This document shows, in pieces, positions 482 through 10,822 of a stretch of DNA of 10,852 nucleotides. Within the stretch, counting starts at the first letter, position 1. Each line of letters starts with the position of its first letter. Position numbers and translations under genes: made by a program. Under the pieces are notes generated by a model. It was given only the letters and a program-made list of their open reading frames with translations. It searched no databases and was not told the DNA's origin. This stretch comes from Vibrio tasmaniensis 1F-187 (GTDB lineage Bacteria > Pseudomonadota > Gammaproteobacteria > Enterobacterales > Vibrionaceae): the NCBI RefSeq assembly GCF_000272405.2, contig NZ_AJZM02000173.1, positions 1-10,852 of the forward strand. Reading direction: 5' to 3'.

Positions 482-498
482 ACAAAGTCATTTGTAAC
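482..498 (+). promoter_or_regulatory. Candidate operator containing TTTGTAAC upstream of the two-component operon
   Basis: ACAAA (482-486) and TTTGT (491-495) form a short inverted repeat with a 4-base spacer, and the right arm continues to TTTGTAAC. The identical 8-mer forms the right arm of the inverted repeat upstream of the PTS gene at 4097-4104. It lies about 110 bases upstream of the regulator start. Shared binding by one regulator is inference. Confidence 0.35.
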
Positions 499-529
499 GA
501 ACCGCTTACATTGCGGAGTTTGAGCGCAT

Positions 530-605: not shown

Positions 606-1317
606 ATGACAAACAAAGTAATCTTGGTGGTCGATGATAGTCAGGACATTCTTGATGCTCTTAGTGAATATCTGGAACGTTCAAGCTTTACGGTTATCAC
701 AGCTCTTGAAGGCAATGAGATGTGGAAGAAGCTTGAAACTGTCACTCCAGATCTCATTATTTTAGACATCATGCTACCTGGAGATGATGGTTTGACCTTG
801 TGCCAGAAACTACGTCTTCAATCTCAAGTTCCCATTATTATGCTCACCGCAGTAACCGACGATGCTGATCGAATCGCAGGATTAGAAATTGGAGCCGATG
901 ACTATATTACTAAGTCATTTAACCCGCGAGAGCTATTAGCCAGAATTAAAGCTTTATTGAGGCGTTCCACGTTTAGCCATAGCCAAGGTGAACGGACTCT
1001 GAAATTCATGGATTGGACTTTTGACACTCTTAAACGACAACTGAAACATGAAGATGGAGAGGTGGTATCTCTTTCTAGTGCTGACTATAACTTGCTTACG
1101 CTCATGTTGGATTCCCCCCAACCAATTATTAAGCAGAAATGATATTGCTCAAGCTCTTTGGGGGAGGGATGCGGAACCACTAGAAAGAGGCATTGATGTA
1201 CAAATTAGCCGGTTAAGGAAGCAATTAAGAGACGATGACCGTAACACGATTATGACGGTAAGGCATCGCGGCTATATGTTAGTGATCGATTCACATATCA
1301 ATCGTATTAAATTTTGA
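606..1317 (+). pseudogene. OmpR-family response regulator, frameshifted in its DNA-binding domain
   Basis: This would be a cytoplasmic two-component transcription factor. Residues 1-122 form a receiver domain with acidic pair D10-D11, phospho-acceptor D54, T81 and K103. Residues from about 130 onward begin an OmpR-type winged helix. The frame then runs into TGA at 1140-1142, giving a 178-residue product. The rest, including the recognition segment VQISRLRKQLRDD and the wing MTVRHRGYML, continues one base later to TGA at 1315-1317. The switch lies at six C (1114-1119). With five C the junction reads DSPNQLLSRNDIAQALWG, which is canonical for the family and gives 236 residues. Either a sequencing error, a true mutation, or slippage at CCC-C explains this. 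K103 is followed by Ser instead of the usual Pro. By gene order and partner genes the protein resembles Pseudomonas GltR, but I do not assign that symbol. Confidence 0.85.
1114..1119 (+). other. C6 homopolymer at the response-regulator frameshift
   Basis: Six consecutive C span codons TCC CCC CAA. Deleting one C restores the full OmpR-type frame exactly at this point. A +1 ribosomal slip on CCC-C would have the same effect, so the run could be an assembly error, a fixed mutation or a slippage-prone switch. Confidence 0.75.
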
Positions 1318-2747
1318 AAAAAAACATACACCAGTCAATGGTTGCGCGTATCACCCTGTCTACGTTCACGGTTATTCTCATGGCTGAAATACTGGCAGGT
1401 GCGGTATGGTTTACGGCAACATCAGCATCAAAAAAAGAGTCAGCTAGCCACGCCATGACAGCTATATCATCAGCTGCAGCAGATACTATTAATTACTTCT
1501 CTGGCTTACCCATTAATTACCGTCACTTGGTGTTGGAACAGCTACGAAATATAGGAGGAACAAGGTTTTTCATATCCATAAATAACCATAAACTTCCTAT
1601 CACTTCTTTATCTGATTACTCATTGGTTCCTCAGATGGAAGTACAAGCGTCTGAACTTCTGAATCAGCAACTTAGAGACTCCCGCAAAGTGCATGTCACT
1701 TTGACTAAGCGAGAAGATTTACGGGTGTTTAACTCTGGTATAAAGCTTCATGAACTTCCTGCATTGTGGAAAGACTACAGTTTAGTATTAGGAAAACTGG
1801 ATCTCCCAATTGCTGTTATTCAGGTGGAGTTTTCAGATAATGAATGGCTTTATTTAGCCACCGTTCTACCGCTGTCTTTTGATAGTCTGACCGATAATTT
1901 CATTGATAGCAGACAAGTCATATTTCTCCTTATTGTTACCTTCATGCTTATGGGGGGTTCTTATGTTGTCTTACAGAAGGAAATTCGTCCTTTTCGTTCT
2001 TTAGCACGCTCTGCCACTCTTATGGGGTCGCAAATGCAGATTGAAGAAATCAAAGAAGAAGGCAGCTCAGAAACCAGAGCTGCTATTCATGCTTTCAACA
2101 AAATGAACCGTCGAATCAAATCGTATTTGCGGGATAGAGATATGTTTTTTAATGCGATATCCCATGATATTAAAACACCATTAGCCTGTTTAAAGTTACG
2201 AACTGAAATGATGGATGATGAGCAAACAAAGTTAAGGTTTGAAAAGCTATTGAACGAAGTCGATATGATGTTGAACGGGGCTTTGCAATATATGCGAGAG
2301 AATGACATCCACGAAGAGTTAGAGTGGATTGATATTAACGATATCCTTGAACAATGCGCGGCTGTTCATAACAAAAATGGAGTATGCGTAAGCCTGATAG
2401 ATCTGCCAAGGATTGAGCTTTATGGCAAGCCACTAGCAATCAAACGTTGTTTATTCAACTTAGTTGATAATGGCGTTAAATATGGAAATACGGTCGACAT
2501 CAGTATGTTTTCTCACTCTGATTCTATTCAAATCGTGCTGCGTGATGCAGGAAAAGGAATCAAAGAAGATATGTTAGAAAAAGTCTTTGAACCTTACTTT
2601 AGAGACAATGATACAGGCATTGAAGGTTCAGGTTTGGGACTAGCAATTGCTCGTAGTATCGCAAGGGCACACGGTGGGGACGTTCAGTTATCTAATTCAC
2701 CAGAAGGTGGGCTTGAGGTGGACATTATTTTGGTGAATGCCCTATGA
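1314..2747 (+). CDS. Membrane sensor histidine kinase, partner of the upstream regulator
   Basis: This 477-residue inner-membrane kinase would sense a periplasmic signal and phosphorylate the regulator upstream. Transmembrane helices lie at about 10-33 and 201-221, enclosing a periplasmic domain of about 165 residues with no obvious known fold. A HAMP-like linker covers about 222-275. The dimerisation helix carries the phospho-accepting H284 in FNAISHDIKTPL. The ATP-binding domain has the N box NLVDNGVKY (382-390), G1 DAGKG (411-415), F box VFEPYFR (424-430) and G2 GSGLGL (438-443), so all catalytic boxes are present. The start chosen is TTG 1314, overlapping the regulator's TGA as TTGA; ATG 1338 is the alternative. 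Neither has a Shine-Dalgarno sequence, so translation probably depends on coupling to the regulator. The stop overlaps the next gene as ATGA. Pseudomonas GtrS occupies the same position next to a glucose-binding protein gene. The ligand is unknown. Confidence 0.9.
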   Translation: MKKNIHQSMVARITLSTFTVILMAEILAGAVWFTATSASKKESASHAMTAISSAAADTINYFSGLPINYRHLVLEQLRNIGGTRFFISINNHKLPITSLSDYSLVPQMEVQASELLNQQLRDSRKVHVTLTKREDLRVFNSGIKLHELPALWKDYSLVLGKLDLPIAVIQVEFSDNEWLYLATVLPLSFDSLTDNFIDSRQVIFLLIVTFMLMGGSYVVLQKEIRPFRSLARSATLMGSQMQIEEIKEEGSSETRAAIHAFNKMNRRIKSYLRDRDMFFNAISHDIKTPLACLKLRTEMMDDEQTKLRFEKLLNEVDMMLNGALQYMRENDIHEELEWIDINDILEQCAAVHNKNGVCVSLIDLPRIELYGKPLAIKRCLFNLVDNGVKYGNTVDISMFSHSDSIQIVLRDAGKGIKEDMLEKVFEPYFRDNDTGIEGSGLGLAIARSIARAHGGDVQLSNSPEGGLEVDIILVNAL

Positions 2748-3988
2748 AAAAATGGTTACTGTTAAGTCTTTTGTTATCGACGAACCCCGCGTTTTCTTCC
2801 CCCTCTGTTGAAATGCTGCATTGGTGGACGGCTGCTGGAGAAGAAAAAGCGTGGTCGGTCATCGAGAAGCAATTTGAATCTCTGCCTTATACATTAAAAA
2901 GTGAACCAATCAGTGGCGGTGGTGGTGCACCTGCCAAAGCGATTCTTCAAGCCAGAGCTATTGCCGGGTATTCCCCTGATATTGCTCTTATGGAAGGTCC
3001 GGCTATTCAGTCATGGGCGGCGTTAGGTTTTTTAAATGATGTCAATGAAGTCGCAGAATCGCAGAGGTGGGATCAGTCGCTGTATCCTGATATTAAAGCC
3101 ATTCACCAATATGACGGGAACTTTGTCGCCATACCTTTGAATATCCATCGATTAAATTGGATGTGGATAAATAAAAAGGTACTAAATCAGCATCAACTTT
3201 CATCACCTCAGACGTGGGACTCGTTACTGTTAGCATTAACTACGCTGAAAAGTAAGGGGGTTAATCCTTTGGCTTTGGGAGAAGACTCTTGGCAAATTGT
3301 GCAAGTTTTTGAAAATATTGCATTCGGAGTAGGTGGAGCAAATTATTATCGACAGGCATTTGTGGATTTAGACCCTGACGCATTAAATAGCGATAAAACA
3401 CTTGAGGCGCTTAAGCGCTTCCGCTCTCTGGCTAATATTGTCGGTAGTGATTTACCGAGTATTAGTTGGGATCAGGGGACAAAATCTTTGCTTGAAGGGG
3501 AGTTTGCCTTTCAATTTACAGGTGATTGGGCTCTGGGAGAGATGTTTATTAGTGCAGAAGGTGAAATTCCAGATTACATAGAATGTCGAGCGTTCCCTTC
3601 TACGGAAAAAGGTTTTATCTACAATGTTGATAGCTTGGCATTTTTTACAAAAGTAACGGGTGAAGATCATAATATGGTATCGGTAATGACCTCGTTATCT
3701 TCTCCCCAATTTCTTTTAGACTTCAGTAAAAAGAAAGGTTCAATACCTGCTCAAGCAAATATACCTGTGAATGAATTATCACGATGCCAACAGCAATCTT
3801 ATCAAGATTACATTCATGCGAGTTCTGAAGGTACAGCTATGCCAAGCTTGACCGATTCAATGGCTGTTAACCCTGTTCTTCAGAATGCGGTATCCAACGA
3901 GTTATATCGCTACTTTATGGACTCTTCCATTTCAGCGGAAACACTTATTGGACACCTACATGCTATTAATAATGAGGTGTTTCGTTAG
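2744..3988 (+). CDS. Periplasmic sugar-binding protein of the GtsA/GltB glucose type, without ABC partners
   Basis: This is a 414-residue extracellular solute-binding protein (family 1). A signal peptide of about 18 residues (MKKWLLLSLLLSTNPAFS) exports it, and the lack of a lipobox cysteine indicates a soluble periplasmic protein. The mature N-terminus EMLHWWTAAGEEKA, SGGGGAPA at 58-64, AIPLNIHRLNWMWIN (129-143), GDWALGEM (260-267), CRAFPS (281-286) and KKGSIPA (330-336) match, from memory, the order of motifs in Pseudomonas glucose-binding GtsA/GltB. C281 and C348 are the only cysteines after the leader and could form the disulfide known in that family. Usual family length is about 415-430. 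The gene overlaps the kinase gene by ATGA. No permease or ATPase gene follows, so a role in transport would need partners elsewhere. A role as ligand presenter to the kinase is inferred from context. Confidence 0.88.
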   Translation: MKKWLLLSLLLSTNPAFSSPSVEMLHWWTAAGEEKAWSVIEKQFESLPYTLKSEPISGGGGAPAKAILQARAIAGYSPDIALMEGPAIQSWAALGFLNDVNEVAESQRWDQSLYPDIKAIHQYDGNFVAIPLNIHRLNWMWINKKVLNQHQLSSPQTWDSLLLALTTLKSKGVNPLALGEDSWQIVQVFENIAFGVGGANYYRQAFVDLDPDALNSDKTLEALKRFRSLANIVGSDLPSISWDQGTKSLLEGEFAFQFTGDWALGEMFISAEGEIPDYIECRAFPSTEKGFIYNVDSLAFFTKVTGEDHNMVSVMTSLSSPQFLLDFSKKKGSIPAQANIPVNELSRCQQQSYQDYIHASSEGTAMPSLTDSMAVNPVLQNAVSNELYRYFMDSSISAETLIGHLHAINNEVFR

Positions 3989-4011
3989 CTTCTTGTTCTT
4001 CTTTTGACTTT

Positions 4012-4050
4012 AAATGTCTAGCTAGAAATTACTATGTACCTTCGACATTT
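4012..4050 (+). repeat. AAATGTC/GACATTT inverted repeat after the binding-protein gene
   Basis: Arms of 7 bp at 4012-4018 and 4044-4050 enclose 25 bases. The pair might form a weak hairpin ending the sensor operon transcript, but the loop is large and only a short T-rich stretch follows. I cannot call it a terminator with confidence. Confidence 0.2.
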
Positions 4051-4078
4051 TCCAGCCTAGGTCTATTGTAAAAAACGA

Positions 4079-4104
4079 GTTACAAACTACTTGCTATTTG
4101 TAAC
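4079..4104. promoter_or_regulatory. Perfect inverted repeat GTTACAAA-N10-TTTGTAAC, likely operator of the PTS gene
   Basis: The arms lie at 4079-4086 and 4097-4104, with centres 18 bases apart, suitable for a dimeric regulator contacting nearly two turns of DNA. It ends 62 bases before the PTS start codon. The right arm is repeated exactly at 491-498 upstream of the two-component operon. The identity of the regulator is not shown by the sequence. Candidates are the neighbouring response regulator or an unlinked LacI- or GntR-type repressor. Confidence 0.55.
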
Positions 4105-4121
4105 CTTGAGATTCAATTAGC

Positions 4122-4149
4122 TTGATAAAGTTCGTTGGTATTCTAACGA
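4122..4149 (+). promoter_or_regulatory. Weak candidate promoter for the PTS gene
   Basis: TTGATA (4122-4127) is followed after 16 bases by TAACGA (4144-4149). The -35 is fair and the -10 poor. The implied start near 4156 would leave almost no leader and fall on the ribosome-binding site, so the real promoter may be further upstream. Confidence 0.2.
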
Positions 4150-4153
4150 TATT

Positions 4154-4159
4154 AAAGGA
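4154..4159 (+). promoter_or_regulatory. Ribosome-binding site fixing the PTS EIICB start
   Basis: AAAGGA stands 7 bases before the ATG at 4167. It selects this ATG over an in-frame TTG at 4122 that has no such site and would add 15 residues not seen in the family. Confidence 0.75.
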
Positions 4160-4166
4160 CTTTATT

Positions 4167-5690
4167 ATGCTAGATAGTTTTAAAAGCGGCTTATCTAAGC
4201 TTTCCTTAATTGGTAAAGCATTGATGTTGCCCATATCTATATTACCCGCAGCGGGGTTATTACTTGCCTTCGGTGCTAAGCTCGACATCCCCCTAATGAT
4301 GCGTGCTGGTGGCGTTATATTTGATAACTTAGCCTTACTGTTTGCGGTAGGAGCCGCGGTTGGTTTGACTAAGGAGTCAGGGATTGCCGCTTTAGCCGCG
4401 ATTGTCGCCATGGTCGTGATGAATGCGACAATGGGGGTGGCGCTCGGCATTACACCTGAGATGGCGATGGGAGGTGGCCGTTATGCAATGGCGATGGGTA
4501 TTCCTTCATTGCAAACAGGTGTCTTTGGCGGACTTATTGCAGGTATCCTCGCAGCCGTTATGTATCAACGTTTTTATGATACTAAGCTGCCTGATTTCCT
4601 TGGTTTCTTTGCTGGTAAACGCTTTGTACCGATTGTGACTGCGTTTTCTGCATTCCTAATTGGTTTAGTTTTACCTCATATTTGGTCATATATTCAATCA
4701 GGTATTGATGCGCTATCGCATATGGCGAATGGCGGAAACATGTACGTATCAACTTTCATCTACGGATTTATGGAGCGCGCTTTAATTCCAGTTGGTCTCC
4801 ATCATATTTTTTATAGCCCTTATTGGTTTTCTTTCGGTGAGTACACAACTGCCGCGGGGACCATTGTAAATGGCGATCATACCATTTGGTTTAAAATGCT
4901 TGAAGATGGAGTAAAAACGTTCTCAACCAGTGAATACCAAGAAGCAGGAAAATTCCTATCGGGTAATTTTGCTATCTACATGTTTGCTTTCCCTGCTGCA
5001 TGTTTAGCTATGTATCATGAAGCGAATGATAAAAATAAAAAAATTGCAGCAGGTATTTTAGGCTCTGCTGCTCTTACTTCGTTTGTTACAGGTATAACAG
5101 AACCCGTTGAATTTGCTTTTATCTTTGTCGCACCTTTACTTTATGTTTTTTCTGCAATCATGGCAGGGGTGTCTTACGCGGTGACTTATGCGTTGGATGT
5201 TCATATTGGTAAAACCTTCTCAGCCGGCATTATTGATTTCGTGTCTTTTGGTGTTCTTCCCGCGATGGATGGGTTCAAAACTAACTGGATCAATGTGATT
5301 CTTTGGGGTCTAACCATGGCCGCTATTTATTACACGGTTTTCCGTTTTGCTATTCGAAAGTTCAATTTGAAAACAGTAGGACGTGAGGATACTCAAAGTA
5401 AGGCGATCACTTTGGACAATGAAGATTTAGCTAGTGAAATCACAATCTTGATTGGTGGTGCCGCTAACATTACTTCGATAGGAGCATGTATTACGAGATT
5501 GCGTTTACAGATTAAAGATCAGGCTCTTGTGAATGAACAAGGAATCAAAGACCTAGGTGCTATGGGGGTCATAAAAGTAGGTTCAAGTGGCCTGCAAATT
5601 ATTTTGGGCTCAAGAGCTCAATTTGTGGCTGATCTTATGAGTGAAAGAACTGGTGAGTCACCAAGTGCACTATCAACTAACCCAAGTTAA
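4167..5690 (+). CDS. PTS EIICB sugar permease, glucose/GlcNAc family
   Basis: This 507-residue inner-membrane permease takes up and phosphorylates a sugar with phosphate from PEP via EI, HPr and an EIIA. The EIIC part (about 1-405) is hydrophobic with family landmarks LPISILPAAGLLLAFG (21-36), IFDNLALLFAVG (51-62), LPDFLGFFAGKRFVPI (141-156), LIPVGLHHIFYSPYW (206-220) and GITEPVEFAFIFVAP (309-323). The linker RKFNLKTVGRED precedes EIIB (about 420-495), whose phosphocysteine is C441 in ACITRLR. No EIIA domain is attached, so the cellular Crr-type EIIA must serve. Several stretches (GLHHIFYSPYWFSFGEY, FGVLP, FRFAIRKFNLKT) look more like Gram-positive PtsG than enterobacterial PtsG, judged from memory, while the N-terminal part is also NagE-like. 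Glucose fits the neighbouring binding protein; GlcNAc or glucosamine cannot be excluded, so I give no symbol. Confidence 0.9.
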   Translation: MLDSFKSGLSKLSLIGKALMLPISILPAAGLLLAFGAKLDIPLMMRAGGVIFDNLALLFAVGAAVGLTKESGIAALAAIVAMVVMNATMGVALGITPEMAMGGGRYAMAMGIPSLQTGVFGGLIAGILAAVMYQRFYDTKLPDFLGFFAGKRFVPIVTAFSAFLIGLVLPHIWSYIQSGIDALSHMANGGNMYVSTFIYGFMERALIPVGLHHIFYSPYWFSFGEYTTAAGTIVNGDHTIWFKMLEDGVKTFSTSEYQEAGKFLSGNFAIYMFAFPAACLAMYHEANDKNKKIAAGILGSAALTSFVTGITEPVEFAFIFVAPLLYVFSAIMAGVSYAVTYALDVHIGKTFSAGIIDFVSFGVLPAMDGFKTNWINVILWGLTMAAIYYTVFRFAIRKFNLKTVGREDTQSKAITLDNEDLASEITILIGGAANITSIGACITRLRLQIKDQALVNEQGIKDLGAMGVIKVGSSGLQIILGSRAQFVADLMSERTGESPSALSTNPS

Positions 5691-5721
5691 AAGTACGGGC
5701 TACTTCCGATAAAGCTGATGG

Positions 5722-5735
5722 CAACAAGCTTGTTG
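5722..5735. repeat. 14-bp perfect palindrome CAACAAGCTTGTTG
   Basis: It lies 31 bases after the PTS stop and 162 bases before the first possible epd start. With no loop and no following T-run it is more like an operator than a terminator. Its binding factor is unknown. Confidence 0.35.
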
Positions 5736-5840
5736 TCTCTTATACATAAATAGTAACGCTATCAACGTTATGGTTGGTGGCGTCTATTTATATTTAAAGT
5801 TTTGAAGTTATGACAGCTTTAGTATTCAACTAATGCGCTT

Positions 5841-5854
5841 TGAGTAGGATTCAG
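5841..5854 (-). promoter_or_regulatory. Possible Cra (FruR) half-site upstream of epd
   Basis: Read on the minus strand, the segment contains CTGAATCCT, which matches the strong half of the Cra consensus (S-TGAA-W-C-S); the other half is degenerate. The epd-pgk region of E. coli is known to be controlled by Cra and CRP, so a site 43 bases before the epd ATG is plausible. One half-site is weak evidence. Confidence 0.3.
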
Positions 5855-5896
5855 TTATCATCTGTTGCACGAAATTTTGGTTAGATGTACGGAACT

Positions 5897-6946
5897 ATGC
5901 TAAAAGTCGCGATAAATGGATTTGGACGAATAGGGCGCAATGTATTGCGCGCTGTCTATGAAAGTGGCAAAAGCCAACAAATCAAAGTAGTAGCGGTCAA
6001 TGAGCTTGCTCAACCTGACGCTATGGCTCACCTATTGCAGTACGACACCAGTCACGGCCGCTTCGGCAAGAAAATCTCTAATGATCAAGAGCACATTTAT
6101 GTTCATCATGGCATTGGTGCTGAAGATAAAGGCGAGTTTGATACCATTCGTATCTTACACCTGGCTGATATTGAACTGTTGCCTTGGCGTGATCTTGAAG
6201 TCGATATTGTTCTCGATTGTACCGGTGTTTACGGTTGCCGAGATGATGGCCTAGCGCACATCGCTGCTGGAGCTAAAAAGGTACTGTTTTCACACCCTGG
6301 TGCTAACGACCTTGATAACACCATTATCTATGGTGTAAATCACGATACTATCGAAGCTGACCACCGAATCGTTTCCAATGGTTCATGCACCACTAACTGT
6401 ATTGTCCCTATCATTAAAGTACTTGATGATGCCTTTGGTATTGAGTCAGGTACCATTACGACCATTCACTCTTCAATGAATGATCAGCAAGTTATTGATG
6501 CATACCATAGCGACTTGCGTCGTACTCGAGCAGCAAGCCAATCTATCATTCCTGTCGACACTAAATTGCATAAAGGTATTGAAAGAATCTTCCCGAAATT
6601 TTCTAACAAGTTCGAAGCGATATCTGTGCGTGTGCCGACGGTAAACGTCACTGCGATGGATTTAAGTGTCACAATTAATACAAATGTGAAAGTTAATGAC
6701 GTAAATCAAACCATTGTTAATGCTTCCCAGTGTACATTACACAATATAGTTGACTATACTGAAGCGCCGCTCGTTTCCATCGACTTTAATCACGATCCCC
6801 ATAGCGCAATCGTTGATGGTTCACAAACTCGAGTGAGCAATGGCACCTTAGTGAAAATGCTGGTGTGGTGTGACAATGAATGGGGCTTTGCGAACCGAAT
6901 GCTGGATACGGTTCTTGCAATGCAAGCTTCAGAAGGCAAGAAGTAA
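5897..6946 (+). CDS. epd: D-erythrose-4-phosphate dehydrogenase
   Basis: This cytoplasmic enzyme oxidises erythrose 4-phosphate to 4-phosphoerythronate with NAD+, the first step of the DXP-dependent pyridoxal phosphate route. The 349-residue protein is a GAPDH-family member: the Rossmann motif [12 protein letters not shown] is at 4-15, the catalytic cysteine is C164 in SNGSCTTNC, and the general base is H191 in [10 protein letters not shown]. The [11 protein letters not shown] and [17 protein letters not shown] stretches are diagnostic of Epd against glycolytic GAPDH. Position 162 is Gly where the family usually has Ala. The start is placed at ATG 5897 because homologues begin M-x-VAINGFG; an in-frame ATG at 5885 would add four residues. 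The ribosome-binding signal is poor: GGA lies only 3 bases from the chosen start. It precedes pgk by 166 bases. Sequence resemblance to E. coli Epd is very high from memory. Confidence 0.95.
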
Positions 6947-6962
6947 GACCTAGAAGCAAATG

Positions 6963-7009
6963 TGTGGATTATTTATTTTTTAGCTTGAAATAAATACTAA
7001 GTGTCCACA
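6963..7009 (+). repeat. Interrupted hairpin between epd and pgk
   Basis: TGTGGA (6963-6968) can pair with TCCACA (7004-7009), and ATTTATTT (6971-6978) with AAATAAAT (6988-6995). The result is a two-part stem with a 9-base loop and an internal bulge. There is no terminal T-run after the outer arm. It may act as an attenuator, a processing site separating epd from pgk mRNA, or an operator overlapping a pgk promoter. Function is not shown. Confidence 0.4.
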
Positions 7010-7015
7010 TATTAT
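6985..7015 (+). promoter_or_regulatory. Candidate promoter for pgk
   Basis: TTGAAA (6985-6990) and TATTAT (7010-7015) resemble -35 and -10 boxes, but the 19-base spacer is longer than ideal. The start would fall near 7022, giving a leader of about 90 bases. Separate strong expression of pgk fits its codon bias. Confidence 0.3.
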
Positions 7016-7100
7016 TAGCAGTTAAAGCATTACCAGTTGAATAATTTATAGGCTTAGCAGGGTTGCTGAGTTTCCAAAACTTTATTTTTATTTAAATTTG

Positions 7101-7106
7101 AGAGGA
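7101..7106 (+). promoter_or_regulatory. Ribosome-binding site fixing the pgk start
   Basis: AGAGGA is 6 bases before ATG 7113. It overlaps codons that would follow an in-frame TTG at 7098, so the start is ATG 7113, giving the family's usual 387 residues. Confidence 0.8.
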
Positions 7107-7112
7107 CAAATC

Positions 7113-8276
7113 ATGTCTGTGATCAAGATGACTGACCTGGAACTTGCAGGTAAACGCGTATTCATCCGTGCTGACCTAAACGTACCAGTAAAAGACGGTA
7201 AAGTAACTTCAGATGCACGTATCCTAGCATCTCTACCAACTATCAAACTTTGCCTAGAAGCTGGCGCAAAAGTTATGGTTACTTCTCACCTTGGTCGTCC
7301 TACTGAAGGCGAGTACAACGAAGAGTTCTCTCTAGCTCCTGTAGTTAACTACCTAAACGACGCACTAAACTGTGACGTTAAACTAGCGAAAGATTACGTA
7401 AATGGTCTTGAGCTAAACGCTGGTGAACTAACTGTTCTTGAAAACGTTCGCTTTAACAAAGGCGAGAAGAAGAACGAAGAAGCTCTTTCTAAGCAATACG
7501 CTGCACTATGTGACATCTTCGTAATGGATGCATTCGGTACAGCTCACCGTGCTCAAGCGTCTACACACGGCGTTGGTACTTACGCTCCTGTAGCATGTGC
7601 TGGTCCTCTTCTAGCTGCTGAGCTTGAAGCGCTTGGTAAAGCAATGGACAACCCAGCTCGCCCACTAGTGGCTATCGTTGGTGGTTCTAAAGTTTCTACT
7701 AAACTAACCGTTCTAGAATCTCTTTCTAAAATCGCTGACCAACTTGTTGTTGGTGGTGGTATCGCGAACACGTTCATCGCTGCTGAAGGCCACAACGTAG
7801 GTAAGTCTCTATACGAAGCTGACCTAGTTGAAACAGCTCAGAAGCTAATGAAAGAGTGTGCTATCCCAGTAGCGACTGACGTTGCATGTGCTAAAGCATT
7901 CGACGAAAACGCAGAAGCTGAAATCAAGCACGTTTCTGAAGTTCAAGACGACGACATGATCTTCGACCTTGGCCCTGATTCAACTGCAGCTCTAGCTGAA
8001 ATCATCGGCAACGCGAAAACTATTCTTTGGAACGGCCCTGTAGGTGTATTCGAATTCAAGAACTTCGAAGCGGGTACAGCTGGTATTTCTAAAGCAATCG
8101 CTGATTCTGAAGGTTTCTCAGTAGCGGGCGGTGGTGACACGCTAGCAGCTATCGACAAGTTCGGTATCAAAGCAGATGTTTCTTACATCTCTACTGGTGG
8201 CGGTGCTTTCCTTGAGTTTGTTGAAGGCAAAGTACTTCCTGCAGTAGCTATGCTTGAAGAGCGTGCTAAAGCGTAA
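7113..8276 (+). CDS. pgk: Phosphoglycerate kinase
   Basis: This cytoplasmic glycolytic enzyme transfers phosphate from 1,3-bisphosphoglycerate to ADP, giving 3-phosphoglycerate and ATP, and runs in reverse in gluconeogenesis. The 387-residue protein has the same length as E. coli Pgk. The N-terminal half carries the substrate-binding motifs [20 protein letters not shown] and DAFGTAHR. The C-terminal half carries the nucleotide-binding motifs [18 protein letters not shown] and the GGGDTLAA loop. Codon use is strongly biased (CTA, GCT, GGT, AAC, GTT), as expected of a highly expressed Vibrio gene and unlike the two-component genes to the left. It lies between epd and fbaA in the conserved order epd-pgk-fbaA but is followed by its own strong terminator, so much of its transcript probably stops before fbaA. 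Confidence 0.98.
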
Positions 8277-8285
8277 TTGATTTAG

Positions 8286-8312
8286 AAAGGCGAGATACGA
8301 ATCTCGCCTTTT
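8286..8312 (+). terminator. Rho-independent terminator after pgk
   Basis: An 11-bp perfect stem, AAAGGCGAGAT (8286-8296) with ATCTCGCCTTT (8301-8311), closes a 4-base ACGA loop. The right arm ends in four T. It starts 10 bases after the pgk stop. The short T-tract may allow some readthrough into fbaA. Confidence 0.85.
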
Positions 8313-8317
8313 AACGT

Positions 8318-8347
8318 TTGCTGCATATCACACTTATTTGCTAGAAT
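8318..8347 (+). promoter_or_regulatory. Promoter for fbaA with extended -10
   Basis: TTGCTG (8318-8323) and TAGAAT (8342-8347) are separated by 18 bases, and the -10 is preceded by TGC, forming an extended -10 element. It lies just after the pgk terminator and predicts a leader of about 78 bases for fbaA. This lets fbaA be expressed separately from pgk. Confidence 0.55.
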
Positions 8348-8431
8348 AGCGGAAGTTGTGAGCAAACGATTGCAAATTTTTAAACTTAAGTTTTTTATCT
8401 TAAAACGAATAGAATAAATAGGACTATTTCC

Positions 8432-9508
8432 ATGTCTAAGATCTTCGATTTTGTAAAACCTGGTGTAATTTCTGGCGATGACGTACAGAAAGTATTTGAA
8501 GTAGCAAAAGAAAACAAATTTGCTCTTCCTGCAGTAAACGTTGTTGGTACTGACTCTATTAACGCAGTACTAGAAGCGGCTGCTAAAGTTAAGTCTCCAG
8601 TTGTTGTTCAGTTCTCTAACGGCGGCGCTGCATTCTTCGCAGGTAAAGGCGTTAAACTTGAAGGTCAAGGCGCACAAGTTCTTGGTGCTGTAGCTGGTGC
8701 AAAATACGTACACGCTGTCGCTGAGTCTTACGGTGTTCCAGTTATCCTGCATACTGACCACGCTGCTAAGAAACTTCTACCATGGATCGACGGTCTACTA
8801 GACGCTGGTGAAGAGTTCTTCGCACAAACTGGTAAGCCTCTATTCTCTTCTCACATGCTAGACCTTTCTGAAGAGTCTCTAGAAGAGAACATCGAAACAT
8901 GTGCTACTTACCTAGCTCGCATGGCAAAAATGGACATGACAATCGAGATCGAACTTGGTTGTACTGGTGGTGAAGAAGACGGCGTTGATAACTCTGATAT
9001 GGACGCATCTGAGCTTTACACTTCTCCAGAAGACGTAGCATACGCATACGAGAAGCTAATGGCTGTTAGCCCACGTTTCACTATCGCTGCATCTTTCGGT
9101 AACGTACACGGTGTTTACCAAGCTGGTAACGTTGTACTTACTCCAACTATCCTACGTGACTCTCAAGCATACTGTGCAGAGAAGTTCGGTATTGCACCTA
9201 ACGCTCTAAACTTCGTATTCCACGGTGGTTCTGGTTCTTCTGAAGCAGAAATCCAAGAGTCTATCGGCTACGGTGTTATCAAAATGAACATCGATACTGA
9301 TACACAGTGGGCAACTTGGGATGGTATCCGTCAGTACTCTGCTGATAACTTCGATTTCCTACAAGGTCAAATCGGTAACCCAACTGGCGAAGCTGCGCCA
9401 AACAAGAAGTACTACGATCCACGCGTATGGCTACGTGCTGCTCAGTCTTCAATGGTTACTCGTCTTGAGAAAGCATTCGCTGACCTTAATGCTGTAGACG
9501 TACTATAA
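8432..9508 (+). CDS. fbaA: Class II fructose-bisphosphate aldolase
   Basis: This zinc-dependent cytoplasmic enzyme cleaves fructose 1,6-bisphosphate to dihydroxyacetone phosphate and glyceraldehyde 3-phosphate. The 358-residue protein keeps the catalytic D109 and the metal ligands H110 (HTDHAAKK), H226 (FGNVHGVY) and H264 (FHGGSGSS); E174 in EIELGCTGG also matches. This numbering agrees with E. coli FbaA as I recall it. The monovalent-cation and phosphate-binding glycines in GGSGSS and the NIDTDTQWA loop are intact. The start ATG has TAGGA ending 8 bases upstream. Codon bias is as extreme as in pgk. It has its own promoter candidate and a strong downstream terminator, so it can be a single-gene transcript within the conserved epd-pgk-fbaA cluster. 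Confidence 0.98.
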   Translation: MSKIFDFVKPGVISGDDVQKVFEVAKENKFALPAVNVVGTDSINAVLEAAAKVKSPVVVQFSNGGAAFFAGKGVKLEGQGAQVLGAVAGAKYVHAVAESYGVPVILHTDHAAKKLLPWIDGLLDAGEEFFAQTGKPLFSSHMLDLSEESLEENIETCATYLARMAKMDMTIEIELGCTGGEEDGVDNSDMDASELYTSPEDVAYAYEKLMAVSPRFTIAASFGNVHGVYQAGNVVLTPTILRDSQAYCAEKFGIAPNALNFVFHGGSGSSEAEIQESIGYGVIKMNIDTDTQWATWDGIRQYSADNFDFLQGQIGNPTGEAAPNKKYYDPRVWLRAAQSSMVTRLEKAFADLNAVDVL

Positions 9509-9537
9509 TTCTTTGAATTAAGTACTCTTTAAGTTTT

Positions 9538-9567
9538 AAAAACCCGCTCATTGAGCGGGTTTTTTTA
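9538..9567 (+). terminator. Strong rho-independent terminator after fbaA
   Basis: AACCCGCTC (9541-9549) pairs with GAGCGGGTT (9553-9561) around a 3-base loop, with flanking A and T runs extending the stem. A run of T follows to 9566. It begins 30 bases after the fbaA stop. Confidence 0.92.
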
Positions 9568-9693
9568 TGTCTGATAAAAACTTGTATTAAATATGTGAAA
9601 AACCTAGCCTACGGTGAATAAATTTCGTAGTCTTTTAGTTATCGGTATTTGCGTTTATTGGTAAGTTTTATTAATTCAAAAGCTTACATAAAT

Positions 9694-9722
9694 ATGACTT
9701 TGCAATCGGTCAAAGATAGGAT
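9694..9722 (+). promoter_or_regulatory. Candidate promoter for mscS
   Basis: ATGACT and TAGGAT, each matching 4 of 6 consensus bases, are spaced by 17 bases. The implied leader is about 155 bases and contains the CAGTTTA/TAAACTG repeats. Alternatives nearer the gene were poorer. Confidence 0.3.
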
Positions 9723-9870
9723 ATCGTGCCGAAAAACTGGACCTGGTTCAGTTTATAAAAAGGACTTGGCTTTAATTTACTTTTAACACAGTGACTTAAC
9801 AGGAGTTAAACTGTTTATTATTGTAAAAGTAAGTTTGGCTTAAGACAGTTTAGCTCATAGCATATTATAT

Positions 9871-9875
9871 AGAGG
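9871..9875 (+). promoter_or_regulatory. Ribosome-binding site fixing the mscS start
   Basis: AGAGG lies 9 bases before ATG 9885 and directly abuts an in-frame ATG at 9876, where it could not serve. The start is therefore ATG 9885. Confidence 0.7.
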
Positions 9876-9884
9876 ATGCACATT

Positions 9885-10751
9885 ATGGCTGATAGTTCGA
9901 CAGCGCTTGAGACTCCAATTGTGGATGGTTTATCTCAGGCCGAGCAGTGGTTAACAAATAATTCAGATCTATTTATCCAATACGGTGTAAACATTATCTC
10001 TGCACTGATAATTCTATTTATTGGTAACTTGATTGTTAAAGCAGTCGCGAATAGCGTATCTAAGGTTCTTGAGAAGAAGAAGATGGACCGAGCTGTTGTG
10101 GAGTTTATCCACGGTTTAGTTCGTTACTTATTGTTTGTTATTGTTCTTATCGCTGCACTTGGTCGTTTAGGCGTTCAAACTGCATCTGTAGTTGCTGTTA
10201 TTGGTGCGGCTGGTTTAGCCGTTGGTCTTGCGCTGCAAGGCTCACTATCTAACTTTGCAGCGGGTGTACTTATCGTTGCATTCCGTCCATTCAAGTCTGG
10301 TGACTACGTGGAAATTGGTGGTGTAGCGGGTTCAGTTGATTCAATTCAGATCTTCCAAACGGTTTTAACAACACCAGACAACAAAATGGTTGTAGTACCT
10401 AACGGAAGCGTTATCGGTAGCCCAATCACTAACTATTCTCGTCATGCGACGCGCCGTATTGACCTAATGATTGGTGTTTCTTACAACGCTGATCTTCAGA
10501 AGACAAAAGCGCTACTGACTAAGATCTGTGAATCTGATGAGCGCGTATTGAAAGATCCAGGTGTTCAAGTAGGTGTTCACACGCTAGCTGATTCTTCAGT
10601 TAATTTTGTTGTTCGTCCATGGGTTAGTACTGCTGACTACTGGAATGTTTATTTCGACCTTATGCAAGCTATCAAAGAAGGCTTGGATAACGAAGGTATC
10701 GAAATCCCATTCCCGCAAATGGATGTACACATGAATAAAGTTGAAGCTTAA
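9885..10751 (+). CDS. mscS: Small-conductance mechanosensitive channel
   Basis: This inner-membrane channel opens under membrane tension to release solutes on hypo-osmotic shock; the family is homoheptameric. The 288-residue protein (E. coli MscS is 286) has TM1 at about 30-55, TM2 at about 75-95 and the pore-lining TM3 at about 98-130. TM3 contains QTASVVAVIGAAGLAVGLALQGSLSN in two overlapping conserved parts. L111 and L115 correspond to the two gate leucines of E. coli (L105, L109), and G119 to the TM3 kink glycine (G113). The cytoplasmic beta and alpha-beta domains follow, with FRPFKSGDYVEIGGVAG, VPNGSVIGSPITNYSR and the C-terminal FPQMDVHMNKV. This is a single-gene unit behind a strong fbaA terminator and followed by its own terminator. 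Its function is independent of the sugar genes. Confidence 0.96.
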   Translation: MADSSTALETPIVDGLSQAEQWLTNNSDLFIQYGVNIISALIILFIGNLIVKAVANSVSKVLEKKKMDRAVVEFIHGLVRYLLFVIVLIAALGRLGVQTASVVAVIGAAGLAVGLALQGSLSNFAAGVLIVAFRPFKSGDYVEIGGVAGSVDSIQIFQTVLTTPDNKMVVVPNGSVIGSPITNYSRHATRRIDLMIGVSYNADLQKTKALLTKICESDERVLKDPGVQVGVHTLADSSVNFVVRPWVSTADYWNVYFDLMQAIKEGLDNEGIEIPFPQMDVHMNKVEA

Positions 10752-10790
10752 TTTCTAGTTAGTTTTTATAGCTATAAGCTTTTATAAGGA

Positions 10791-10822
10791 AAGGCGGATA
10801 ACTTAGGTTATTCGCCTTTTTT
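10791..10822 (+). terminator. Rho-independent terminator after mscS
   Basis: AAGGCGGATAAC (10791-10802) pairs with GTTATTCGCCTT (10807-10818) around a TTAG loop, with a single G-T wobble. Six T occupy 10817-10822. It lies 39 bases past the mscS stop. Confidence 0.9.

Follow-up and report, generated by a model that had tools for sequence, protein, structure and literature searches.

A putative three-component hexose sensor beside a PTS permease gene in Vibrio tasmaniensis 1F-187 and its relatives

Sensor kinases gated by a periplasmic binding protein are already a known kind. In GltR-GtrS-GltB(FGK), the glucose system of Pseudomonas, GltB acts on GtrS. In HptRSA-UhpT of Staphylococcus, HptA acts on HptS, and the system senses sugar phosphate and controls a transporter of the major facilitator superfamily (MFS). 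In LuxP-LuxQ of Vibrio a periplasmic protein of the sugar-binding type presents autoinducer 2 (AI-2) to the kinase. Genes for permeases of the phosphotransferase system (PTS) are generally thought to be induced via the transported sugar or via the phosphorylation state of the permease. Here we describe a trio of regulator, kinase and binding protein in a 10,852-nucleotide stretch of DNA from Vibrio tasmaniensis 1F-187 (NZ_AJZM02000173.1, the whole stretch; hereafter the window). The trio lacks adjoining cognate genes of an ATP-binding cassette (ABC) transporter and precedes a gene for a PTS permease. We consider it probable that it senses a periplasmic hexose via the binding protein and switches on the glucose-family PTS permease. 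If true, a dedicated periplasmic receptor would be wired to a PTS gene, which is another induction logic.

The window is the entire contig C172 of a 5.3 Mb draft genome in 435 contigs. Its relevant features are as follows (EIIBC, enzyme IIBC).

491..512, no strand assigned: degenerate site ahead of the regulator, possibly an operator (TTTGTAAC-N6-CTTACATT); two-half-site match, best tripartite score there 16/24
606..1142, + strand: receiver domain and first part of the effector domain of the response regulator, whose frame breaks before the end (PF00072, 3.1e-31; 96% to the intact L073 regulator)
1117..1317, + strand: rest of the DNA-binding domain of the regulator, read in a different frame (PF00486, 5.3e-15; 100% over 66 residues to the L073 regulator)
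1314..2747, + strand: sensor histidine kinase, EnvZ/GtrS-like, whose periplasmic domain has about 165 residues (HATPase_c, 2.1e-21; HisKA, 7e-07)
2744..3988, + strand: glucose-binding-type solute-binding protein, altered in the pocket (E84, D371), no ABC partner adjoining (SBP_bac_1, 1.6e-17)
4065..4104, no strand assigned: tripartite operator before the PTS gene (ATTGTAAA-N6-GTTACAAA-N10-TTTGTAAC); score 22/24, shuffles reach 17
4167..5690, + strand (longer start at 4122 possible): PTS EIIBC permease of the glucose family, not the housekeeping-type PtsG (TIGR02002, 562 bits)

An earlier sequence-only reading had seen a regulator, a kinase and a glucose-binding protein at 606-3988, and the domain matches bear this out (OmpR-type regulator, EnvZ-like kinase, homologue of glucose-binding proteins). 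Its statement that a PTS gene follows, with no ABC permease or ATPase after the trio, is confirmed: the window holds none, and the next gene encodes a glucose-type PTS EIIBC. The periplasmic domain of about 165 residues that it assigned to the kinase fits the predicted structure, in which helices at 9-64 and 199-237 flank an alpha/beta region. A fold search with the kinase was uninformative on this sensor part (the top 50 matches are histidine kinases, aligned mainly over the kinase core). Of the three overlapping genes that it described, kinase and binding protein do overlap by 4 bases (2744-2747), but the regulator is not one open gene, a broken frame that the reading overlooked. Nor did it make use of the PTS gene, which proved to be a recurring partner.

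Among the described systems, the GltB-GtrS-GltR set of Pseudomonas is nearer to the trio than LuxP-LuxQ. The comparison was made through a stand-in from the window's own genome, which carries a second, full set at C427 in the order regulator-kinase-binding protein-permease-permease-ATPase, the layout that the sequence-only reading had ascribed to Pseudomonas. The order of the first three genes is shared (the regulator being broken in the window and intact in L073), and the proteins are homologous: the kinases are 38% and the binding proteins 35% identical (33-35% across comparisons). Related operator half-sites occur at the Vibrio paralogues. The window trio is an extra, ABC-less paralogue of the C427 set; a leftover of the C427 operon is rejected, both being present in the same genome at 35% identity. 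Unlike the Pseudomonas system, the trio has no adjoining ABC permeases or ATPase, its binding protein sits in the sensor operon, its pocket has changed from K to E and from H to D, and its operator precedes a PTS permease gene. The trio shares with sensors of the LuxPQ and HptRSA kind a binding protein that is encoded with the kinase and without a transporter of its own beside it. HptRSA-UhpT likewise places a binding-protein-like sensor, a kinase and a regulator over a non-ABC transporter, but with other protein families, a sugar phosphate as signal and an MFS instead of a PTS transporter. LuxP likewise offers its ligand to a kinase, but it is a binding protein of another type and its signal is AI-2.

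The ABC-less trio recurs in Vibrionaceae and beyond, as the sequence-only reading had asked to be surveyed. Among the matches listed, 84 of 148 genomes searched have a binding-protein match of some kind. Longer stretches were taken around the 27 best matching places outside this genome (identity of at least 38%), and all 27 contain the three trio genes but lack a C427-like permease; at L059 a C427-like ATPase gene (67% like the C427 ATPase) lies farther upstream. Among named genomes, the 80 best of 563 relatives yielded 33 ABC-less trio loci, seven of which repeat genomes already in the first set; the hosts include Thaumasiovibrio, Photobacterium, Aeromonas, Grimontia and Enterovibrio. Both sets and the window, minus eight duplicates, give 53 non-redundant loci. 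Dropped were the genome repeats L075, L094, L088, L106, L100, L091 and L095, together with L059, a near-duplicate of L058 presumed from equal lengths and scores and not from computed identity. A further 12 were kept off the trees (L138, L148, L149, L143, L132, L128, L151, L114, L127, L134, L144 and L131), including four binding-protein genes beside which no trio and no permease was found. The 53 trio loci form one side of a 100%-supported branch in each of two quick trees, one of binding proteins (94 rows) and one of kinases (70 rows), with support from SH-aLRT (a Shimodaira-Hasegawa-like approximate likelihood-ratio test) alone. At all 53 a permease like that of C427 (over 200 bits) is absent within 4 kb. 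The idea of the trio as a local oddity is rejected by this recurrence. The joint presence of kinase and binding-protein genes at every locus is partly by construction, the loci having been found via the binding protein.

Other ABC genes do lie near some trios, as oligopeptide-type sets in L048, L049 and L061 (the type being named for L048 alone). At L064 a glucose-6-phosphate dehydrogenase gene (2804-4306) adjoins the trio, and L060 has a 501-residue gene in a similar place. Trios without adjoining C427-like permeases also occur outside the clade (L070, L072, L112, L115, L118, L123, L124, L125, L129, L136, L141 and L146). They have K at the E84 position and lack the window-type operator, and are possibly further recruited sensors; L072 adjoins fatty-acid genes.

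The binding protein has the fold that the sequence-only reading expected of a GtsA/GltB-like glucose-binding protein; its sugar need not be glucose, because two pocket residues differ. The best structure matches of its model (predicted local distance difference test 89) are the glucose-binding proteins 4r2b, 5dvj, 8kd0 and 8hqq. Pocket positions were read by alignment to the P. putida glucose-binding protein (ppGBP, 5dvf), of which we take K92 and H379 to be sugar contacts. The K92 position is E84 in 51 of the 53 trio-clade proteins and K in 25 of 28 ABC-linked ones; the H379 position is D371 in 52/53 and H in 28/28. H135, N294, D296 and K331 are identical in all 94 aligned binding proteins. 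By the alignment, the pocket change is placed on the branch leading to the trio clade, and the sugar may therefore differ from glucose. A pocket with two acids could, as a speculation, suit an amino sugar.

Gene spacing ties the binding protein to the kinase. At four ABC-linked Vibrio loci the two genes are 110-173 bases apart, with a GTAAC-N6-GTTAC palindrome before the binding protein in 4/4. In 32 of the 53 trios the open reading frames (ORFs) are -4 to +4 bases apart, and in 50 the gap does not exceed 54 bases, usually leaving no room for a promoter. Measured independently of start codons, from the kinase stop to the HWW codons, the distance has a median of 81 bases in the trios (range to 257) versus 192-255 at the four ABC-linked loci. 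The trio's binding-protein gene is thus usually part of the sensor operon and not of a transport operon with its own promoter.

The PTS link recurs as well. A PTS EIIBC gene lies within 5 kb at 45 of the 53 trio-clade loci and at 2 of 13 other ABC-less rows (one of the 13 is L152, whose contig ends inside a permease gene and which is really ABC-linked); none was found within 8 kb of the 33 ABC-linked loci. Trio against ABC-linked loci (28 after dropping rows) gives a Fisher p of 7e-15, with relatedness not corrected. The partners belong to several lineages (the window type 62-100% identical, others 39-44%) and lie variously downstream, upstream or divergent relative to the trio, which makes it probable that the linkage arose repeatedly. 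The window's EIIBC stays below the curated cut-offs (562 vs 591.8 bits for TIGR02002, 437 vs 647 for NF008301), its best match still being glucose IIBC. Its own genome has a housekeeping-type PtsG elsewhere (L005, 817 bits to NF008301) and two N-acetylglucosamine-type permeases (L006 and L007). Glucose IIBC is the best NCBIfam match of all 10 partner EIIBCs tested, and 8 of them exceed the TIGR02002 cut-off. Eight of the ten come from the trio clade (6 above the cut-off) and two from outside-clade trios.

An operator is a further tie. Upstream regions share half-sites (G/C)TTACAAA in the layout STTACAAA-N9/10-TTTGTAAS-N6-STTACAAA. Scored over 24 positions, with 18 or more as mark, it is found in 43/45 PTS regions and 42/53 regulator regions, and in 0/120 shuffles (maximum 17; 40 of the 98 regions, three shuffles each). 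As divergent loci share one upstream region, the 14 loci with PTS and regulator genes in one direction are the fairer test, and there 12 of the 14 PTS regions reach 18. The site at 4065-4104 holds the only exact inward site of the 5.3 Mb genome. None of 14 scanned outside-clade ABC-less trio loci scores 18 or more. Scans for promoters and terminators in the surroundings of the operators turned up nothing that exceeded shuffled sequence.

Exact sites were counted in 24 of 28 trio genomes (without G053, G101, G125 and G144) and in 40 hand-picked trio-less relatives; inward and outward two-half-site matches were counted apart, though both often lie within one operator. The trio genomes hold 45 matches, 38 of them located at the trio, at the PTS gene next to it or at a window-type PTS gene elsewhere in the genome. 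The other 7, near acyl-CoA dehydrogenase, chemoreceptor, RND (resistance-nodulation-division) adaptor and exonuclease III genes among others, are probably mostly chance. The 40 trio-less genomes hold 7 (5 outward, 2 inward), none with a PTS EIIBC found adjoining, and a reversed-pattern control gave 9 matches in the same 64 genomes. In 5/5 searchable genomes without a PTS gene within 5 kb of the trio, an unlinked window-type EIIBC has the site (exact in G048, G081, G025 and G049, one mismatch in G065). G036 has a different EIIBC adjoining the trio and, in addition, an unlinked one of the window type that carries an exact site. Only one of the 40 trio-less genomes has a window-type EIIBC at E 1e-150 (G014, no site in the upstream bases printed). 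Exact sites thus follow the trio, which points to the trio's regulator as the operator binder, and the predicted operator makes this claim testable by gel-shift.

Chemoreceptors may belong to the same regulon in some species, and the binding protein may feed chemotaxis too. An exact outward operator match lies 46 bases upstream of a chemoreceptor gene at L176 (25-1455, in G001), and chemoreceptor genes occur near the trios of L044 (11191-13146) and L054 (12000-13907).

Taken together, the ABC-less clade, the pocket change, the operator and the PTS linkage make it most likely that the trio senses a periplasmic hexose and switches on the PTS permease. In the proposed circuit the operon of the kinase also supplies a sugar-binding protein whose relatives are ABC receptors. 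A hexose would bind it in the periplasm, as its fold suggests, and it would dock on the periplasmic domain of the kinase, as operon structure and joint inheritance suggest. The kinase would then phosphorylate the regulator, as is usual in the family. The regulator would bind the (G/C)TTACAAA half-sites before the PTS gene and, in many relatives, also before its own operon. The glucose-family PTS permease would thereby be switched on (activation rather than repression is the presumed direction), and uptake would answer to the sugar outside the membrane. More tentatively, and with somewhat less than even confidence, we see here a widespread sensor family of Vibrionaceae, Aeromonadaceae and neighbours, in which an ABC-type signal receptor with a two-acid pocket would bind a hexose other than glucose, for example an amino sugar, and PTS permeases would be induced in answer to external sugar. 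The clade makes for a natural comparison: one branch puts the receptor fold to work for a pump and the other, apparently, for a kinase.

Several observations weigh against this circuit. The binding and contact steps are ones that we infer. A related ABC transporter is also at hand: of 28 trio genomes searched with the first and the second permease of the C427 set, 20 (the window's own included) have an orthologue of the first at 75% or more among the matches listed, and in G144 the related transporter lies about 9 kb from the trio. The binding protein could then be a second receptor for the C427 ABC transporter, active in uptake with kinase and regulator as mere neighbours, for which the own genome has cognate permeases and ATPase. 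We give this little credence, as the C427 set carries its own binding protein, the trio's protein is encoded within the sensor operon, and 8 of the 28 genomes (7 at least 98% complete, the remaining one 65%) have, among the matches listed, no first permease above 31% and no second above 34%. The sequence-only reading had named as one refuter partner ABC genes elsewhere in the genome that need this protein for uptake; an ABC set does exist there, though with a binding protein of its own (35% identical), and the trio protein may or may not serve it too. Improbable as well is a passenger from a lost ABC operon, with kinase and regulator controlling the PTS gene in response to some other signal. 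Orphan binding proteins can linger, and the kinase contact is, as said, an inferred one. The protein is nonetheless conserved across the trio clade (13 of 14 tabulated columns the same in 52 or 53 of 53, the other in 51), and its tree distances follow those of the kinase (r 0.92, species history not controlled). A short kinase-binding-protein distance is no mark of the clade alone, the 14 ABC-less trios outside it having a median of 100 bases from kinase stop to HWW codons. The earlier proposal that the binding protein was kept for the kinase is favoured by the ABC-less clade, the spacing, the eight permease-less genomes and the tie of operator and PTS gene; its further parts, the contact, the sugar and the LuxP-LuxQ logic, are conjectural.

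Further counterpoints concern the operator. The window's pre-regulator site (16/24) is within shuffle range and no better than chance, and the site is weak in the window's own clade (16 in the window, 16 in L073, 18 in L041). Only 5 of the 14 regulator regions of the same-direction loci reach 18, 5 of 73 regions before ABC-linked genes score 18-19, and three of four trio genomes tested at E 1e-150 lack a window-type EIIBC (another EIIBC adjoins the trio). The targets usually described for OmpR-type regulators are direct repeats; inverted half-sites are thus unusual for such regulators and could belong to another protein. A HexR-like or Mlc/NagC-like regulator that happens to control trio and PTS genes would fit, HexR sites likewise containing TGTAA/TTACA. 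We think this quite unlikely, given that exact sites in trio-less genomes are as few as in the reversed-pattern control, with no PTS EIIBC found by any of them, and that a related palindrome stands at the paralogous ABC-linked Vibrio loci. Finally, the regulator frame is broken in the window isolate, so the circuit may be dead there unless the assembly is in error. The receiver part stops at 1142, and the DNA-binding part runs on in a different frame (ORF 1048-1317). Both pieces match the intact 244-residue regulator of Vibrio sp. 99-70-13A1 (L073; 96% over 178 residues, 100% over 66), and between 1001 and 1200 the window has one base more than both relatives. A dead remnant in this isolate is possible, if rather unlikely, and would be compatible with a working sensor in the relatives. 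The remaining window genes are open, kinase and binding protein share 97% and 96% identity, respectively, with their L073 counterparts and show no signs of decay, and the assembly is a 435-contig draft. The break may be a true mutation or a draft error. The regulator, kinase and PTS ORFs of L042/L075 (Vibrio mexicanus) are all shorter than those of the relatives, perhaps through draft errors.

On the + strand, the order in the window is regulator, kinase, binding protein, PTS EIIBC, erythrose-4-phosphate dehydrogenase, phosphoglycerate kinase, fructose-bisphosphate aldolase and MscS (phosphoglycerate kinase and aldolase named by eye from translations). Compared with G076, the first 4000 bases are 62-83% identical, 4001-4200 are 82% and 4201-10800 are 97-100% identical; compared with L073, the figures are 90-98% for the first 4000 bases and 67-92% for 4201-7000. 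A sharp recombination junction thus lies at 4000-4200, the trio side being like Vibrio sp. 99-70-13A1 and the PTS and downstream side like G076. These identities suggest that the trio was exchanged in one piece, the mosaic junction falling between binding protein and PTS gene, and we count this junction in favour of the proposed circuit. Upstream, at 34-270 on the - strand, the window encodes a small protein of 78 residues with CxxC pairs. Its counterpart in L073 (817-1053) sits between the end of an apparent transketolase gene (identified by eye) and the regulator.

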